Source of the DNA: Aureimonas frigidaquae
Lineage (GTDB): Bacteria; Pseudomonadota; Alphaproteobacteria; Rhizobiales; Rhizobiaceae
NCBI RefSeq assembly: GCF_001463905.1
Contig: NZ_BBWR01000003.1
Location: 124,001 to 188,000 of the forward strand
Direction of reading: 5' to 3'
DNA length: 64,000 bases
The notes below the pieces were generated by a model. It had not been told where the DNA came from and searched no databases. It saw only the letters and a list, made by a program, of their open reading frames with translations. Positions 2,884 to 17,608 of the stretch are shown piece after piece. A program made the translations under genes and the position numbers. Each line of letters opens with the position of its first letter. The stretch's first letter is position 1.

Positions 2884-3918
2884 TTATTTTGCGGTGAGGA
2901 GGTTCTCCTTGACCCAGGCGTCGTCATAGCTCGGGCTGATGATCATGCCGGGCTTCAAGCCGGCCGCCATCTGCTCCAGATTGGCGGCTTCCACGGTCGC
3001 CACGGGCATGGTCATATCCTTGGGCGCTTCGGCGCCCTTGACGATCTCGTAGGCGAGCCAGAAGGCGGCGCCGCCGATGCCCGGCGTCGTGTTCATGGAT
3101 GTCGTGCGGTAACCGTCCTTGGCCTTTTCGTTCCACCAGAGGACGAAATCGCTCGAGCCGCCGCCTTCGATCACCGGCAGCTTCTCCGCATAGGGGCCGC
3201 CGGCCTGTTCGAAGGCCTGTGCGATCCCGAAATCGTCGCTGCCGCCCTGGCCCAGGACGGCATCCACATGCGGCAGGCTCGGCAGGACGTTGCCGATTGC
3301 CGACTGCGCGACCGAGGCCGTCGCCTGGCCGTAGACTTCCGCCACGACCTTCACGTCGGGATGGGCGTCCAGCACCTTCTTCTGCGCCGAGTACATGAGG
3401 TTGTCCGGTCCAGAACCCTTCACGCCGCGCACCACGATGACGTTGCCCTTGTTCCCGATCAGGTCGAGCGTGGCTTCCGCCTGCTCGGTCTTGTAGCCGG
3501 TGAAGTCGAAGGACAGCTTGTAGGCGCAGTCGGCCGTCAGCAGCGAATCGAAGGCGATGACCTTGATGCCGGCCGCGCAGGCCTTTTCGGCAAGGCCGTT
3601 CAGCGCTGTCTCGGACGCCGCGTTGATGGCGATGGCGTCGACGCCGCGCAGGATCAGTTCGGCAAGCTGGCTGTTCTGCTGGTTCACGCTGCCGTCGCCG
3701 TTCAGGACCACGAAATCGGCGATCTGTCCGGCGGCCTTGGCCTTCTCCGCTTCGGCCGTGAACGCATCCACCATCTGGCGGCGCCACGTATTGCCGTAGA
3801 AGGAATTGGACAGCGCGATCACGGGCTTTTCCGGATCAAGCGCGGCGGCGGGTCCCATCGTCCCTGCGGCCAGCGCGACAAGGGACGTCGCAGCCGCGAG
3901 CATGCGGATGTTCAGCAT
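2884..3918 (-). CDS. Periplasmic sugar-binding protein of ABC transporter (RbsB/Peripla_BP_4 family)
   Basis: The product is a 344-residue periplasmic binding protein that captures the ligand for the adjacent fused importer. It begins with a typical signal peptide (MLNIRMLAAATSLVALAAG..., cleavage expected near an AAA-L site) followed by the pattern of RbsB-type proteins: VIALSNSFYGNTWRRQM, a central AIAINAASETALN repeat region, and hinge segments. The ATG at 3918 was chosen over an upstream in-frame ATG because GGAGGAATAA sits just before it. It is the first gene of the minus-strand operon and faces the divergent FadR-type regulator across a 160-base promoter region carrying a candidate operator. 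The ligand is unknown; a branched or acidic sugar is inferred from the enzyme genes nearby. Confidence 0.9.
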   Translation of the reverse strand: MLNIRMLAAATSLVALAAGTMGPAAALDPEKPVIALSNSFYGNTWRRQMVDAFTAEAEKAKAAGQIADFVVLNGDGSVNQQNSQLAELILRGVDAIAINAASETALNGLAEKACAAGIKVIAFDSLLTADCAYKLSFDFTGYKTEQAEATLDLIGNKGNVIVVRGVKGSGPDNLMYSAQKKVLDAHPDVKVVAEVYGQATASVAQSAIGNVLPSLPHVDAVLGQGGSDDFGIAQAFEQAGGPYAEKLPVIEGGGSSDFVLWWNEKAKDGYRTTSMNTTPGIGGAAFWLAYEIVKGAEAPKDMTMPVATVEAANLEQMAAGLKPGMIISPSYDDAWVKENLLTAK

Positions 3919-3965
3919 CTTTATTCCTCCCATGAGACACGGTTCCTCCACGGTGTCCTGACATA

Positions 3966-3986
3966 CTCATTATACCATCAAATGAG
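3966..3986 (-). promoter_or_regulatory. Candidate operator/promoter of the sugar importer operon
   Basis: Read on the minus strand, this site is CTCATT-N9-AATGAG, a 6-base inverted repeat enclosing TGGTATAAT. The 11-mer TGGTATAATGA (3967-3977) recurs at 4812-4822 in front of the RuBisCO-like gene. TGGTATAAT also equals an extended -10 promoter (TGnTATAAT), so the element could be a promoter core, an operator of the FadR/NanR-type regulator encoded next door, or both overlapping. NanR of E. coli recognises GGTATA repeats (established); its application here is inference. Confidence 0.55.
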
Positions 3987-4081
3987 GCGGCTCAAGCAAA
4001 AGGTAGCCGACGGTCGGGGAGAGGCGACGCGATTGTGCCGCATCGGAGCCTGCACTACACCCTCTCCAGAAGGAGATGCCC

Positions 4082-4810
4082 ATGGAGCCTGTGCAGAAGC
4101 GCAAACTCTCTCATCAGGTGCTCGAGCGGCTGGTGGAGGCGATTTCGACATCGGAGTTCCCGCCCGGCTCGCAGCTTCCCTCCGAGCGCGAACTCATGAG
4201 CATGACGGGCGTCGGCCGCCCCTCGATCCGCGAAGCCATGCTGTCGCTGCAGCAGATGGGCCTGATCAAGATCAGCCACGGCGAGCGGGCCAGGGTCATC
4301 AACCCGACGCCCGACGTGGTGATCGACCAGATTTCCGCAGCCATGATCATGCTCCTGGCCACCAGCCCGCGCGGACTGGACGAGTTGAAGGAAGCCCGCC
4401 TGTGGCTGGAGACAGGGCTTGTGGCTATGGCGACGCGCAACGCCACCGCCCACGACCTCGATGCCCTCGCCGCATCGATCCGCGCGCTGCAGGATGCCCG
4501 TGACGACCAGGCCCGGTTCATCGCCGCCGACCTGTCCTTCCATGCGCTGATCGCCGAGATGAGCGGCAACGGCATGGTCGCCGCGATCACCAGGGGCATG
4601 CTGGAATGGCTCTCGCGGTTCAAGCGCGACCTCGTCTCCAAGCGGGGCAAGGAGCGCCTGACGATCGAGGAACACGACCGGATCTACCGCGCCATCGCCA
4701 GCGGTGATGCCGAAGCCGCCGCGCAGGCGATGCGCCAGCATATCGGCCGGGCGAACCAGCTCTACTGGCAGGAGGCCGACCCTTCGGCCGTGACGCAAAA
4801 AGACGCGTAA
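4082..4810 (+). CDS. FadR-subfamily GntR transcriptional regulator (NanR/UxuR-like)
   Basis: A 242-residue regulator with an N-terminal winged helix (about residues 8-75, PPGSQLPSERELM...GVGRPSIREAMLSLQQMGLI, the GntR signature) and a C-terminal FCD ligand-binding domain (about 95-225, with D/H metal-binding positions such as ADLSFHALI and IEEHDRIYRAI). GntR proteins of this type usually repress sugar-acid genes and release DNA when the ligand binds. I chose the ATG at 4082 rather than 4076 because AAGGAG lies 6 bases before it but directly abuts the earlier ATG. It lies between the importer (divergent) and the RuBisCO-like gene (same strand), so it very likely controls both through the shared TGGTATAATGA element. 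Confidence 0.88.
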   Translation: MEPVQKRKLSHQVLERLVEAISTSEFPPGSQLPSERELMSMTGVGRPSIREAMLSLQQMGLIKISHGERARVINPTPDVVIDQISAAMIMLLATSPRGLDELKEARLWLETGLVAMATRNATAHDLDALAASIRALQDARDDQARFIAADLSFHALIAEMSGNGMVAAITRGMLEWLSRFKRDLVSKRGKERLTIEEHDRIYRAIASGDAEAAAQAMRQHIGRANQLYWQEADPSAVTQKDA

Positions 4811-4811
4811 C

Positions 4812-4822
4812 TGGTATAATGA
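4812..4822 (+). promoter_or_regulatory. Second copy of TGGTATAATGA element, upstream of RuBisCO-like gene
   Basis: This is an exact 11-base match, in the direction of transcription, to the element in front of the importer genes. It begins 2 bases after the regulator's stop codon and lies 54 bases before the RuBisCO-like start. As at the other copy it could be an extended -10 hexamer (TGGTATAAT), a repressor half-site, or both. Here it lacks the flanking CTCATT arm, so the common core is TGGTATAATGA. Confidence 0.5.
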
Positions 4823-4875
4823 CATGAAGACTTACCGGTGCTATGAACGAGTCATGGCGTCGGGAGGAGGACTTC

Positions 4876-6135
4876 ATGGTCGAGCGCATCGTCGCGACCT
4901 ATCGGATCGAAACACGGTATCCCGTGCAGCAGGCAGCGGCCGCCATGGCGGGCGAGCAGTCGAGCGGCACGTTCCGCCCCGTACCGGGCGAAACGCCCGA
5001 GCTCCTGGCGCGCTTCGGCGCCCGGGTGGAGGACATCGAACTTCTGGGCGAAGTCGCGCAGCCGAGCCTGCCCGGTGCCAGAGCCCCGCGTGACACGGCA
5101 TCGCCAAGGCCGGTGCAGGCGCGCGTGCGCCTGTCCTGGAATTTCGAGAATGTCGGGGCGAACCTGCCGATCCTGTGGTCCACGGTCCTCGGCAATCTTT
5201 TCGAGCTGCACCATTTTTCCGGCCTCAAGCTCGAAACGCTCGAGCTTCCCGATGCCATGGCGCCGGCCGGCAGGGGCCCTGCCTTCGGCGTCGAGGGCAC
5301 CCGGGCGCTGACGGGGGTCTACGGCCGCCCGATCATCGGCACCATCATCAAGCCGAGCGTCGGGCTGACGCCCGAACAGTCGGCCGAGCTCGCCGACCGG
5401 ATGATCGGCGCCGGGCTGGACTTCATCAAGGATGACGAGTTGATGGGCGACCCGCCCCATTCGCCCTTTGCCGAGCGCTATGCCCGGGTGATGGACGTCA
5501 TCGACCGGCATGCCGACCGGACGGGCCGGCGGGCCATGTATGCGGCCAATCTGTCGGGTGATCTGGATGCGATGCGCCGGCAGCTGGACCTTATCCATGC
5601 GCGCGGCGGAAGCTGCGCCATGCTCGTCCTGAATGCGGTCGGCCTCGTCGGCGTGGCGGAGATCCGCAAGCACGCCGCCGTCGCCCTGCACGGCCACCGG
5701 GCCGGCTGGGGCCTGTACGACCGCGCGCCGCAACTTGGCCTAAGCTACCGAGCCTACCAGAAATTCTGGCGCCTGGCCGGGGTGGACCATCTGCACGTCA
5801 ACGGACTCGGCAACAAATTCTGCGAAAGCGACGAGAGCGTGATGGCATCGGCACGCGAATGCCTGACGCCCATGTTCCAGGACAAGCCCTGCACCGTGAT
5901 GCCCGTCTTCTCGTCGGGACAATCCGCCGTGCAGGCGGGCGAGACCTTCCGGCAACTCGGGGGCGACGACATCATCTTCTGCGCCGGCGGCGGCATCATC
6001 GCGCATCCCGACGGGGCGGAGGCCGGCGTGCGCTCGATCCACGAGGCCTTCGAGGCCGCCCGTTCGGGCATCGACGCGGCCACCTACGCACAGGACCATC
6101 CTGCCCTGAAACGGGCGCTGGAAAGTTTTGCCTGA
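4876..6135 (+). CDS. RuBisCO-like protein (form IV), probable sugar-acid phosphate (trans)decarboxylase
   Basis: A 419-residue RuBisCO large-chain homologue. The ATG at 4876 follows GGGAGGAGGACTTC. Core catalytic positions are kept: K159 (GTIIKPSVG, loop 1 base), the carbamate/metal site K185-D187-E188 (DFIKDDE), H274-R275 (HGHRAG), K314 (GLGNKF, loop 6), S347-G348 and the GGGIIAHP phosphate loop at 371-378. Surrounding sequence differs strongly from true RuBisCO (no SQPFMRW after KDDE; the equivalent reads DPPHSPFAER), so CO2 fixation is not expected. Known relatives in D-apionate breakdown act on 3-oxo-isoapionate 4-phosphate (established for that family). The apnO-like gene directly downstream supports a similar role here, but substrate and reaction are inferred. 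Confidence 0.88.
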   Translation: MVERIVATYRIETRYPVQQAAAAMAGEQSSGTFRPVPGETPELLARFGARVEDIELLGEVAQPSLPGARAPRDTASPRPVQARVRLSWNFENVGANLPILWSTVLGNLFELHHFSGLKLETLELPDAMAPAGRGPAFGVEGTRALTGVYGRPIIGTIIKPSVGLTPEQSAELADRMIGAGLDFIKDDELMGDPPHSPFAERYARVMDVIDRHADRTGRRAMYAANLSGDLDAMRRQLDLIHARGGSCAMLVLNAVGLVGVAEIRKHAAVALHGHRAGWGLYDRAPQLGLSYRAYQKFWRLAGVDHLHVNGLGNKFCESDESVMASARECLTPMFQDKPCTVMPVFSSGQSAVQAGETFRQLGGDDIIFCAGGGIIAHPDGAEAGVRSIHEAFEAARSGIDAATYAQDHPALKRALESFA

Positions 6136-6203
6136 CGCTCGGCGTCACGCTGCGGCGCAGCGCCGGACAGAGAGATCAACATGACATTGGGAGGAGAGAG
6201 ACG

Positions 6204-7049
6204 ATGTCGGTTTCCGTAGCCATTCTGGGCTCCGGCGGGAAAATGGGCTTCCGCATCACGCGCAAGCTCGTCGACGCCGGTTATGACGTGCGTGCCATCG
6301 AGATCGGCGAGCCGGGGCGCGCCCGGCTGGCCGAGGCGGGCATCACCGCCGTCGACCGTGATGCCGGTGTGTCGGGTGCGCGGGTCGTGGTGCTGGCCCT
6401 TCCGGACAATGTCATCGGCGGCGTTGCGGCGGAACTCTCGCCGCTCCTGGCGCCGGGCACGATGCTCCTGATCCTCGATGCAGCCGCGCCCTATGCGGGC
6501 GACCTGCCCAAAGACAGGCCCGACCTGACCTATTTCGTCGGCCATCCGTGCCATCCCCCGCTCTTCAACGACGAGACGGACTGGGCCGCGCGGCGGGATT
6601 ACCACGGCGGTATCGCGCGCCAGTCCATCGTCTGCGCGCTCATGCAGGGCCCGGAGGAAGACTATGCGCTGGGCGAGGAGATCTGCCGGGCCATGTGGTC
6701 GCCCATCATCGACGCCTGGCGGGTGACGGTGGAGCAACTCGCCATCCTGGAGCCCGGCCTGTCGGAAATGGTCGCCATGCCCTTCGTGGACACGATGGTG
6801 GAGGCGGTGGAAGAGTGCGAGCGCGTCTACGGCATTCCCCGGCAGGCGGCGCTGGATTTCCTGATCGGCCACCTCAATGTCGAGATCGCCATGTGGTTCG
6901 GCTATTCGCCCAAAGTGCCGTCGGACGCGGCGCTGCGGCTCATGCGCTTCGCCAAGGGCGTTGTCGTGCGTGACGAATGGCGCGAGGCGCTGTCTCCGGC
7001 CAAGGTGCGTGAGGCATCCGAACTCATCGTCTACGGCAAGGGTGCCTGA
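6204..7049 (+). CDS. apnO: NAD-dependent oxidoisomerase resembling D-apionate oxidoisomerase
   Basis: A 281-residue dehydrogenase. Residues 1-30 form a Rossmann fold with AILGSGGKMGFRITRKL (dinucleotide-binding loop). The C-terminal half resembles the putative phosphogluconate-dehydrogenase C-terminal domain found in ApnO, which oxidises D-apionate and rearranges it to 3-oxo-isoapionate. Conserved-looking stretches are FVGHPCHPPLFNDE and FLIGHLNVEIAMWFGYSPKVPSDAA. The ATG at 6204 follows GGGAGGAGAGAGACG, an excellent ribosome site. It lies 68 bases after the RuBisCO-like gene and 2 bases before the TIM-barrel gene, forming a three-gene operon. The symbol is offered by family resemblance and context; the substrate remains to be shown. 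Confidence 0.7.
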   Translation: MSVSVAILGSGGKMGFRITRKLVDAGYDVRAIEIGEPGRARLAEAGITAVDRDAGVSGARVVVLALPDNVIGGVAAELSPLLAPGTMLLILDAAAPYAGDLPKDRPDLTYFVGHPCHPPLFNDETDWAARRDYHGGIARQSIVCALMQGPEEDYALGEEICRAMWSPIIDAWRVTVEQLAILEPGLSEMVAMPFVDTMVEAVEECERVYGIPRQAALDFLIGHLNVEIAMWFGYSPKVPSDAALRLMRFAKGVVVRDEWREALSPAKVREASELIVYGKGA

Positions 7050-7051
7050 TC

Positions 7052-7891
7052 GTGCGCCCGGTCGCGGTGTCCACCGCGCTGTTCGACGGATATGACCTGC
7101 AGGCGGCGATCGGGGAGATCGCCGCCGCAGGTGCCACCTTCGTGGAGCCGGCCTTCATACGCGGCTATATCGACTTTGCGGAAGACGCATTCCTGCCGCC
7201 GCAGTCCAGCCGGCTCGCAGGGTGGATAGGCCAGGCCGGGCTGCGCGTGATGGCGGTGTCGGCCCATTGTGACCTGGCGGCCCACGATGCCGTCGATATG
7301 CTGCGCCGGCGCATCGCCATGGCGGCAGAGCTTGGCGCGCCTGTGCTCATCACCAATACGGGTGCGGCGGCAGAGCGCGTGCGGATCTGCGCCGTGCTCG
7401 ACGGGGCGCTGGCCGCCTGTGCCGACAGCGGCGTGACGCTCGCTCTGGAAAATCCCGGTCATGGTGAGGGCGATCTCATCGGAACGGGGGCCGACGGCGC
7501 CGCGCTCGTGGCCGCGCTCGACTCACCATGGCTGCGCCTCAACTACGATGTCGGCAATGTCCTGACCTACAGCGAAGGACGGCTGGCGCCGGACGAGGGC
7601 GACCTCAGGCAGGCGCTCCCGGCCATCGCCCATCTGCATCTGAAGGATGCGCTGCCGGCCGACGGCCATTGGCGCTACACGGCCATCGGCGACGGCGCGA
7701 TCGACTATGCCGCGCTGTGGCCGGACATCCCGGCCACGCTGCCCGTGGCGATCGAGCTGCCGCTGCGCCTGCGCCGTGCCGTCGGGGCTGCGCCGCAGCG
7801 CGAGCCGACGCCCCTGCCGCTTCCGGAACTGCGGGAGGCACTGGCCCGCTCGTTGCGCTTCGTGCGGGGGCTGGACGCGGCCCCTGCCTGA
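7052..7891 (+). CDS. Sugar phosphate isomerase/epimerase family TIM-barrel protein
   Basis: A 279-residue xylose-isomerase-like (AP_endonuc_2) barrel starting with GTG two bases after the preceding stop. The four classical metal ligands can be picked out: E133 (LALENPGH), D166 (NYDVGN), H196 (HLHLKD) and E235 (AIELPL). Such enzymes isomerise or epimerise ketoses and sugar acids, and some members act as decarboxylases. As third gene of the RuBisCO-like/apnO-like operon it probably acts on an intermediate of the same pathway. Its C-terminal tail (residues 240-279) is arginine/proline rich and diverges from the barrel. The next gene, leuB, is convergent, so this gene ends the operon. Confidence 0.8.
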   Translation: MRPVAVSTALFDGYDLQAAIGEIAAAGATFVEPAFIRGYIDFAEDAFLPPQSSRLAGWIGQAGLRVMAVSAHCDLAAHDAVDMLRRRIAMAAELGAPVLITNTGAAAERVRICAVLDGALAACADSGVTLALENPGHGEGDLIGTGADGAALVAALDSPWLRLNYDVGNVLTYSEGRLAPDEGDLRQALPAIAHLHLKDALPADGHWRYTAIGDGAIDYAALWPDIPATLPVAIELPLRLRRAVGAAPQREPTPLPLPELREALARSLRFVRGLDAAPA

Positions 7892-11349: not shown

Positions 11350-11598
11350 CGGCCCTCGCTTATCCGTCCACCCGTCGGAACGCGCCTTTTCTAGCCTAAG
11401 GGCAAGGGCTTTGCCATGGCGTCGCACGGGGTGCAGCAAGCTCGCTCCGACATGTGATGGCGTGGCAGGAAACAGATTTTTTTTAAGGTGGCTGCCGGGC
11501 CGGGATTCGTCGGATTCACAGGGCGGAGAGAGCCGATCCGGCATGTCGCGCCCGTTTCCACCATGCTTGACTCCATCCGGGCGCTCTGGAATCCATAG

Positions 11599-11613
11599 GA
11601 ACAAATCAGGAAC
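11599..11613 (+). promoter_or_regulatory. LexA (SOS) box upstream of imuA
   Basis: GAAC-AAATCAG-GAAC is a perfect direct repeat with a 7-base spacer, equal to the alphaproteobacterial LexA box (GTTC-N7-GTTC read on the other strand). It lies 23 bases before the imuA ATG, where LexA would block transcription. This places imuA-imuB-dnaE2 in the DNA-damage regulon, as established in Caulobacter and rhizobia. Confidence 0.85.
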
Positions 11614-11635
11614 AAAAAGGCCCTGTGGAGGTCTT

Positions 11636-12529
11636 ATGGAGCGGCGATGCGACCCATCTGCCGAGAGCGTGATGTCCGTGACCGGAAAGGCCAGTCGCCT
11701 GTCCCTCTTGCGGGGCGAGATCGCCCGGCTGGAGGAGCTGCCGCCGGCCGGCCGCGCGGCGACGCGCTCGGGCAACATCCTGCCTTTCGGCGTGGCCGAG
11801 GCCGATCGCGCGCTGGGCGGCGGCTTTCCGGCTGCCGGCCTGACGGAGATCCGGCTGGCGGAGGCGCAGGGCGGTGGCGCTGCGGCAGGGTTCCTGGCCG
11901 GGCTGGCGGTGCTGTTCGGCGCCACCCCCGCACGGCCGCTCCTGTGGATCGCCGATCGGTTCACCCTGCGCGAGGCGGGGCTGTTCTATGCGCCGGGGCT
12001 GACGGCCTTCGGCCTGCCGCCTGCCGCCTTCGCCATGGTGCGGCCCATGCGGCTGGAAGAGGCCCTGTGGGCGGCGGAGGAGGCGGCGGCCTCGGGCGCG
12101 GCCGCACTGGTCGTCCTGGAAGTCTTCGGCAATCCGGCCCGGCTGCGGATGGAAGGCACGCGCCGCCTGCATCTGCGGGCCAGGACCGCGCGCCTGCCCA
12201 TCGTGCTGCTGCGGCAGGCTGCCCAGCCGGAAACCACGGCGGCGCCGCAACGGCTGCGCCTGGCCTCTGCGCCGGCCTCCCGCGTGCCGGACCTGCCGCA
12301 TCTGGCCCGGCTGATCGGCCATTCGGTCTTCGAGATCGTGGTGGAGAAATCTCCGCTCGGTCAGCCTGCCCCCTTTCGCCTGGAGTGGAACATTGACGAA
12401 CGCCGCTTTGCCGCGAGCCAGCCGCATCCTGGCCTTGTCGCTTCCCCACCTGTCGACCGACCGGCTGCGGCGGGAACGGTCCGGCCGTTCCTGGCGCCGG
12501 GAATTTCCCTTGCCAGACGCCGGGCCTGA
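11636..12529 (+). CDS. imuA: SOS mutagenesis accessory protein ImuA
   Basis: A 297-residue RecA/SulA-like protein of the damage-inducible mutasome. ImuA works with ImuB and DnaE2 in error-prone lesion bypass (established in Caulobacter and mycobacterial analogues). Family traits are LPFGVAEADRALGGGFPAAGLTEI, PLLWIADRFTLREAGLFYAPGLTAFGL, and PFRLEWNID near the end. The ATG at 11636 has GGAGG five bases before it and lies just after the LexA box; the longer upstream frame is not needed. The gene overlaps imuB by 137 bases in another frame, giving a C-terminal tail of about 45 residues rich in proline and arginine. Confidence 0.92.
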   Translation: MERRCDPSAESVMSVTGKASRLSLLRGEIARLEELPPAGRAATRSGNILPFGVAEADRALGGGFPAAGLTEIRLAEAQGGGAAAGFLAGLAVLFGATPARPLLWIADRFTLREAGLFYAPGLTAFGLPPAAFAMVRPMRLEEALWAAEEAAASGAAALVVLEVFGNPARLRMEGTRRLHLRARTARLPIVLLRQAAQPETTAAPQRLRLASAPASRVPDLPHLARLIGHSVFEIVVEKSPLGQPAPFRLEWNIDERRFAASQPHPGLVASPPVDRPAAAGTVRPFLAPGISLARRRA

Positions 12530-14131
12530 GCGCAGCGAAGGGCGTGGGCCGCCGACGGCGGGATTGTTCCGGGAAGCCACGGGCAGTGCCCACCGCGCGC
12601 CGCGCGCGGGGCTTCTGGCCGTGGCCGAGGATGGCATTGCCGCCGCCGCCCGCACGCAGGACGACCTGGCCCCGCTGGCGCTGTACGAGCGCGACGGCGG
12701 CCTGGTGCGGATCGTCGCCCTGTGCGAGCGGGCACGCCGCGCCGGTCTGGCGCGCGGCGCCAGCCTGGCGGAGGCACGGGCGCGCTTTCCCCATTTTGCC
12801 TTCGAGCCGGCCGATCGGGGCGCCGACATGCGGCTCCTGGACGCCGTGGCCGACTGGTGCGACCGGTACACGCCGCTGGTCGCGCTGGACGGCGCACGCG
12901 GCCTTCTGATGGACATTACGGGCTGCGCGCATCTGTTCGGGGGCGAAGCGGCCATGATGGCCGACCTTCTGGCGCGGCTGACCGCGCAAGGCCTTGCCGG
13001 GCAGGCGGCGATCGCCCCCTCGGCCGGACCGGCCCTGGCCCTTGCCGCCTTCGTGCCCGGTACCATCCTGGCGGCGGGCGCGGAACTGGAGGCGCTGCGT
13101 CCGCTGCCCGTGCGGGCCCTGCGCTTTCCACCGGACACGGCGGCCATACTGGACCGGCTGGGGTTGCGCTGCGTGGGCGATATCCTGTCCCAGCCCCGGG
13201 CATCGCTGGGCCGGCGCTTCGGGGCCGCCTTCCTGGACCGGCTCGATACGGGAACCGGCCAGGCCACCCGGCCGATCAGCCCGCGCCGTCCTGTCCCCCA
13301 GCTCATCCACGAGCGCAGGCTTTTCGAGCCGATCGGGCGCGTGGAGGATATCGAAGGCCTGATCCTGCACCTGGCCACCCGCCTGAAGCCCGATCTGGAA
13401 CGGTCGGGGCAAGGGGCGCGCCAGCTCGAACTGTCCCTGTTCCGGGTGGACGGGGTGGTGGAGCGGATCCTGTTGGCGACATCCCGTCCGCTGCGCGATC
13501 CCGAGCGGGTGCGCCGCCTGTTTTCCGAGCGCCTGAAGGCGATCGGCGACGAGCGGGATGCCGGCTATGGCTATGACCTCCTGCGGCTTGCCGTCATGTC
13601 GATGGCGCCCCTGGCCGAGCGCCAGACGGGCTTTTCGCAGAGCGAAGACAGCGGCGAGGCGCTGACCGTCCTGGTGGACCGGCTGGCGGCCCGCCTGGGC
13701 CCGGAAAGCGTCCTGTCGCTCGCCCCCGTCGCCTCGCACTGGCCGGAAGCGGCCCAGCGGCTTGTTCCCGGGCTGGCCCCCGGGCTTGTTCCTGGGCTGG
13801 CACGGGCACGGGACATGGCGCCCGAACGGTCGCTGGCCATGCGCCCCTTGCGGCTCCTGCATCCGGCCGAGCCGGTGGAGGCGATGGCCGTCCTGCCGGA
13901 GGGAGAGCCGGTGCGCTTCGTCTGGCGCCGCGCCGTGCACCGGGTGCTGCGGATCGAAGGGCCGGAGCGGATCGAGCCGGAATGGTGGCGGCGTGCCGTT
14001 CCCGGCGCCGAGCCGGAGCCCCCGCGCGATTATTTCCGCATCGAGGACGAGGAAGGGCGCCGGTACTGGATGTTCCGCGAGGGGCTCTACGGCGCCAAGG
14101 AACCGCGCTGGTTCCTGCATGGCATCTTCGC

Positions 14132-14135
<4 letters not shown>
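12393..14135 (+). CDS. imuB: Catalytically inactive Y-family polymerase ImuB
   Basis: A 580-residue Y-family polymerase homologue beginning at TTG (12393) inside imuA. The palm motif that is usually S(L/V)DE reads VALDGARGLLMDITGCAHLFGG, lacking the catalytic D-E pair, as typical for ImuB, which serves as a hub binding the beta clamp and DnaE2. Residues about 30-70 (PDAGPERSEGRGPPTAG...) look like an insertion relative to common ImuB proteins, and near 450-465 there is a short GL-x-PGL triple repeat (bases about 13757-13800). It shares ATGA with dnaE2, so all three genes are coupled and LexA controlled. Confidence 0.93.

Positions 14136-17582
<3,447 letters not shown>

Positions 17583-17608
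<26 letters not shown>

Follow-up and report, generated by a model that had tools for sequence, protein, structure and literature searches.

This locus places a RuBisCO-like protein (RLP) in a sugar-acid operon of the apionate type with no kinase or lactonase beside it, which raises the question of where those steps are encoded and on what substrate the operon acts. The window, the whole 64-kb stretch analysed (G000:C3:124001–188000), lies on the 373-kb contig C3 of a 4.1-Mb genome in 30 contigs. Two sets of genes diverge from positions 3952–4075. On the plus strand, a NanR-like GntR/FCD regulator (4076–4810; 281 bits, cutoff 260) is followed by a form IV RLP (4843–6135; PF00016, 222 bits), a PGDH_C dehydrogenase, here termed PGDHw (6204–7049; PF16896, 202 bits), and a xylose-isomerase-like TIM barrel (7052–7891; AP_endonuc_2, 88 bits). 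The minus strand encodes a periplasmic sugar-binding protein (2884–3951; Peripla_BP_4, 165 bits), an ABC importer with its ATPase fused to a permease domain (339–2810; family match) and a second permease, named by place and by eye, of which the window edge leaves the 3′ part (2–346; whole gene L003:11393–12346). The ATPase–permease fusion is a single protein of 823 residues, with homologues of similar length in the related loci described below. All named genes are intact ORFs with clear family matches, in agreement with the first-pass annotation, which had described an RLP, an ApnO-like dehydrogenase and a barrel beside an importer and a FadR-type regulator, and which had rightly called the operon apionate-type. 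A decayed relict was considered and dropped, given the uninterrupted reading frames and the conserved neighbourhood. Elsewhere in the window, three consecutive ORFs (11411–17608) resemble, by eye, an ImuA–ImuB–DnaE2 mutagenesis cassette.

The same annotation had rightly noted the lack of a local kinase or lactonase; at the level of the operon, the kinase-dependent D-apiose pathway is therefore incomplete, its DUF1537 kinase being absent from all 373 kb of the contig. Its proposal that the missing genes lie left of base 1 did not survive extension of the sequence: the permease gene cut at base 1 ends approximately 607 bases further left, beyond it come ORFs resembling an inorganic pyrophosphatase and a potassium transporter (named by eye), no kinase or lactonase follows, and the set is found on other contigs. 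Of the three DUF1537 kinases in the genome, C11 encodes two and C7 the third; of its two RuBisCO-family genes, one is in the window and the other on C11. The C11 protein is OiaX (750 bits, cutoff 700) and is 41% identical to the window RLP. It is preceded by a NanR-like regulator and ApnL (735 bits against a cutoff of 750, the gene being cut by the contig end) and followed by an OiaK-like kinase (459 bits; cutoff 700, next model 165) and then a transporter. At the end of C10 stand an ApnO-like gene and a Gfo/Idh gene, whose product we take to be the apiose dehydrogenase. Because C10 ends and C11 begins inside one apiose gene set, the two contigs are probably neighbours in the genome. At the level of the genome, the D-apiose pathway with a kinase is present as dehydrogenase, lactonase, oxidoisomerase, kinase and RLP, with the kinase below the OiaK cutoff and ApnL just below its own. 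The gap in the window operon is explained by genes in trans, and a missing neighbour gene need not mean a missing pathway step. The other two DUF1537 kinases of this genome (L017 10008–11234 and L018 9990–11138) are only 25–27% identical to the query kinases.

On balance we lean towards a reading in which the operon provides uptake and the later steps of a pathway of D-apiose/apionate type, the kinase, lactonase and first dehydrogenase of which are encoded elsewhere in the genome. PGDHw, as a specialised relative of the D-apionate oxidoisomerase, would oxidise the branched acid; the metal-dependent barrel would isomerise or epimerise its product ahead of phosphorylation; the OiaK-like kinase of C11 would make, in trans, the 4-phosphorylated 3-oxo branched sugar acid; and the RLP would act on that acid by cleavage or decarboxylation. 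The gene content, the clade to which the RLP belongs, the co-occurrence of kinases, the kept catalytic and phosphate-site residues and the changed pocket residues are observed; the individual reactions, their sequence and the substrate are all inferred.

The window RLP belongs to form IV of the RuBisCO superfamily (RuBisCO_large cutoff 30.1 bits), with the catalytic lysines and metal ligands present. Numbered from 4843, the catalytic set is K170, K196–D198–E199, H285 and K325; the residues K159, K185, D187, E188, H274 and K314 named in the first-pass annotation are the same ones counted from an in-frame ATG at 4876. The latter is the likelier start, since residues 1–11 are the sole stretch of the model with pLDDT below 50 and the corresponding position is where the orthologues in L019 and L020 start. 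OiaX (NF042437) is the best NCBIfam match of the protein, which reaches 415.6 bits of the 700 needed for membership.

Relatives of the RLP were collected by a scan of genome contigs (191 found, of which the best 80 were kept), to which a plasmid hit and genomes from a search of the family were added. The window RLP falls in a clade, termed W, of 15 members from 14 genomes and one plasmid record: the window, the plasmid of S. meliloti LMB1 (L010), L019–L027, G541, G544, G553 and G559. Its support is 100/100 in the IQ-TREE analysis of 39 chosen rows, and the FastTree analysis of 89 rows agrees for the 11 members that it included. Outside the clade, a DUF1537 kinase lies downstream of the RLP, on the same strand and within 2.6 kb, in 63 of 71 scan loci, and 58 of these kinases are within 200 bases; of the remaining eight loci, three lack such a kinase and five stand too close to a contig end. 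In clade W, none of the nine loci with room has a kinase directly downstream of the RLP, and PGDHw and the barrel stand in the kinase’s usual place. The contig of L027 breaks off behind PGDHw. The RLP and the PGDHw–barrel pair are approximately 3 kb apart in L019, L020 and G541, and TRAP transporter genes were identified in this interval in L019. This placement of the pair is new and probably marks a variant of the apiose-degradation route in which both enzymes are uncharacterised; as judged from sequence, the window operon is probably such a variant of the apiose/apionate route, with D-apionate or a cousin as its substrate.

Kinases nevertheless accompany the clade, as every one of the 15 members has matches to PF07005, the DUF1537 kinase family. 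In 11 of them the clade RLP has such a kinase no more than 18 kb away (the plasmid record W01, G001, G002, G004–G007, G541, G544, G553 and G559), and in G000, G003, G008 and G009 it is on other contigs; the near kinase adjoins a second RLP in G004, G006 and G007. The clade RLP is the sole RLP in G001, G544, G553 and G559, where the cluster kinase is 53–55% identical to that of C11; PF00016 has no second match in G544 or G553, and in G001 and G559 it has a single one, of approximately 450 bits, taken by its score as form I RuBisCO. In the complete clusters of G544, G553 and G559 the RLP has ApnL, ApnO-like, Gfo/Idh and OiaK-like genes as neighbours, and the G544 ApnL passes its cutoff (761 against 750). 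The importer type of the window, with orthologues of its binding protein, shares one operon with an OiaK-like kinase, ApnL and an ApnO-like gene in L019, L020 and L136. When the kinases of C11, L020, L136, L140 and L137 (the last outside the clade) were typed with NCBIfam, OiaK was the best model for all five, and none reached its cutoff of 700 (422–459 bits). In IQ-TREE the window RLP nests with L019, L020, G544, G553 and G541, whose kinases lie within 11 kb; the absence of a kinase from the window cluster is thus best read as loss or relocation of the gene where a second set is at hand.

The separation of RLP and kinase would also fit an RLP that acts on an unphosphorylated sugar acid, as the first-pass annotation had proposed; the lack of a directly following kinase in all nine clade loci with room, against its presence in 63 of 71 others, speaks for this, as does the loss in clade W of N287, the neighbour of the phosphate-site arginine. 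The site itself is intact: R286, H318, S358, G383 and G384, presumably the counterparts of the phosphate ligands of RuBisCO, are kept. In G637 the RLP has A287 (and C262) and stands next to a kinase gene, and A287 is therefore no sign that the phosphate has been lost. Together with the kinases in all 15 members, 11 of them within 18 kb, and in clusters where the clade RLP is the sole RLP, these residues make action on an unphosphorylated acid highly improbable.

The pocket of the clade W enzymes is altered at three positions. V262 and A287 occur in all 15 members, and position 235 is alanine in 11 and valine in four; among 73 other rows, the same positions are S262 (72 of 73), N287 (73 of 73) and F235 (66 of 73), and the four sister rows have S262 (4/4), N287 (4/4) and F235 (3/4). 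In the predicted model, the three positions coincide with the ends of strands 232–236, 258–262 and 281–285 or come shortly after them, and judged by their place in the barrel we infer that they would lie near K196 and H285.

PGDHw has the PGDH_C fold, and its residues differ from those of the ApnO type. The label ‘ApnO-like’ given to it earlier holds, whereas plain ‘ApnO’ would be wrong, as it forms a separate subfamily and is 52% identical to the ApnO-like protein encoded on C10 of the same genome. The 28 aligned PGDHw rows, representing 17 genes of which some were entered twice, all have histidine at position 134, where 59 of 59 ApnO-type rows have phenylalanine; the A161C and T189M replacements likewise separate 28 of 28 PGDHw rows from 58 of 59 ApnO-type rows, and G237K and F239P are further differences. 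Matches to PGDHw at an E value of 1e-60 occur in 115 of 394 genomes of the family, with orthologues at 70–100% identity in 11 of the 394, the barrel beside them in all 11. The other full-length matches in the family are at most 54% identical, and one partial match reaches 59%. Among 385 genomes of the class there are four matches at this threshold, including that of the window genome, the others having at most 52% identity. Roles for the two enzymes as tartronate semialdehyde reductase and hydroxypyruvate isomerase were considered and dropped, the dehydrogenase being of the PGDH_C type and the barrel matching no such model.

The fixed changes in the RLP pocket (S262V, N287A, F235A/V) and in PGDHw (F134H, T189M, G237K) argue for a changed substrate and count against our preferred reading. 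They lend some support to a different branched sugar acid, the third option of the first-pass annotation. The operon would then serve another sugar acid, branched or of four carbons, on which a DUF1537 kinase would still act in trans, with PGDHw, barrel and RLP all retuned. Two distributions point the same way: PGDHw occurs beside a separate ApnO-like gene in eleven loci (L010, L019, L020, L022–L025, L136, L140, L141 and L143), and 11 of the 15 clade W members, including the window genome, also carry another RLP, so that the clade RLP could have a job of its own, a further point against the preferred reading. In G596 and G637, however, the PGDHw–barrel pair is part of an apiose-type cluster that includes an ApnL-like gene (36–38%), Gfo/Idh, an RLP and a kinase, and neither genome (that of G637 being 83% complete) gave another match to PGDHw at E 1e-60, as if PGDHw took the part of ApnO; moreover, the RLP of G596 has the ordinary F, S and N at positions 235, 262 and 287. 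We regard such a retuned operon as possible, and hold it tentatively. A more specific proposal seems to us rather doubtful: clade W as a separate pathway for a branched acid other than D-apionate, in which PGDHw would oxidise and the barrel isomerise, splitting the work of ApnO in two, a DUF1537 kinase would phosphorylate, and the RLP, with S262 replaced by V and N287 by A, would cleave a substrate without one of the hydroxyls found in the apionate series, such as a methyl-branched tetronate. Such a pathway would represent a new reaction of the RuBisCO superfamily. Apiose-type clusters with PGDHw and the barrel are also seen in L137 (4198–11215) and L146, where a search at E 1e-60 gave no ApnO-like match.

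The barrel groups with the 3-epimerases and isomerases of the AP_endonuc_2 family, whose kind of activity it may share. Its metal site, E133, D166, H196 and E235, is invariant in nine of nine aligned clade barrels and throughout a broader set of 13 rows, which confirms the E–D–H–E site described earlier; the accompanying suggestion that the barrel supplies a step is probably right. The model (pLDDT 90) is nearest to UlaE and D-tagatose 3-epimerases, with TM scores of approximately 0.7 and 14–19% identity among the hits listed, a likeness of predicted folds from which its function cannot be carried over. A search of PDB sequences returned one chance-like hit only, the barrel did not match the OtnI model, and OiaC was not among its model matches.

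OiaC, the 3-oxo-isoapionate decarboxylase, yields erythrulose. PGDHw and a barrel of OiaC type could on this pattern form a non-phosphorylative side branch giving erythrulose, in parallel with the RLP and its kinase in trans. On plasmids, DhaK/DhaL come immediately after a relative of the barrel in L099 and L100, the relative in L101 has transketolase, transaldolase and RpiB genes in its neighbourhood, and the window genome has five matches to Dak1, the dihydroxyacetone-kinase type (on C2, C3, C12, C17 and C20). A Dak1 kinase is nevertheless absent from three of the 11 genomes with the pair (G541, G596 and G526), the fold is nearest to 3-epimerases with all four metal ligands kept, and position 137 is histidine in all ten pair-linked barrels shown but aspartate in those plasmid relatives. 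A side branch of this kind is accordingly unlikely. The plasmid clusters of L099 (4105–13403) and L100 (3950–9509), with their barrel–DhaK/DhaL genes near a transketolase pair or an L-threonate-dehydrogenase-like gene (in L100, 294 bits against a cutoff of 350), may belong to another sugar-acid route.

Returning to the preferred reading of a lower arm completed in trans, a NanR-like operator element, TGGTATAATG, matches the window twice by pattern, ahead of the RLP (4812–4821, plus strand) and ahead of the binding-protein gene of the importer (3968–3977, minus strand), where its function would be that of an operator. The element also precedes the RLP in the sister loci L011, L012 and L014; the same pattern gave no match in L010, L023, L026, L149 or the C10 stretch. 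On C11, the interval from the regulator to OiaX holds a similar site with two mismatches. The genome-wide count, three hits against five in a reversed control, shows no excess for a pattern drawn up with the C11 site in view. Co-regulation through a shared operator-like element is thus offered as a suggestion. The patchiness of the element and its lack of genome-wide excess count against the preferred reading, as do the kinase scores below the OiaK cutoff and the distance of the kinase from the RLP in G000, G003, G008 and G009.

No paper on this operon was found in the open-access library searched. To our knowledge, RuBisCO-like proteins with known reactions are few, and a sharply bounded clade with a constant dehydrogenase–barrel pair and altered pocket residues makes three enzymes testable together for a new substrate or reaction. 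Among known systems, the barrel shares its fold and four-ligand metal site with UlaE and the D-tagatose 3-epimerases, at the low identity given above. OtnK, the kinase of the L-threonate pathway, belongs to the DUF1537 family. That pathway (LtnD–OtnI–OtnK–OtnC), as outlined in PMC12540250, follows the same logic of dehydrogenase, isomerase, kinase and decarboxylase; it differs in that the barrel has no OtnI model match and the RLP stands in the place of OtnC.

OiaX, the 3-oxo-isoapionate-4-phosphate decarboxylase, has its catalytic residues in common with the window RLP, which differs from it in its score (415 bits of 700), in its 41% identity to the genome’s own OiaX and in having, with the rest of clade W, H316 and H318 where OiaX has Q/Q. 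Because the clade keeps these histidines, our guess from the sequence is that the chemistry may be OiaT-like rather than OiaX-like. From 3-oxo-isoapionate 4-phosphate, OiaT gives 3-phosphoglycerate and glycolate, and OiaX gives CO2 and L-erythrulose 1-phosphate. OiaT of Xanthobacter, a transcarboxylase/hydrolase cited in PMC6302742, is by that account an RLP for the same phosphorylated acid. The closest parallel to the clusters of G544, G553 and G559, in their ApnL, ApnO-like, Gfo/Idh and OiaK-like genes, is the oxidative D-apiose pathway with a kinase, for which PMC11747546 names five enzymes (apiose dehydrogenase, ApnL, ApnO, OiaK and OiaX) in a strain growing on D-apiose. Compared with the pathway as given there, clade W adds a second PGDH_C subfamily and the barrel, its RLP is not OiaX, and in the window genome the kinase is encoded on another contig.
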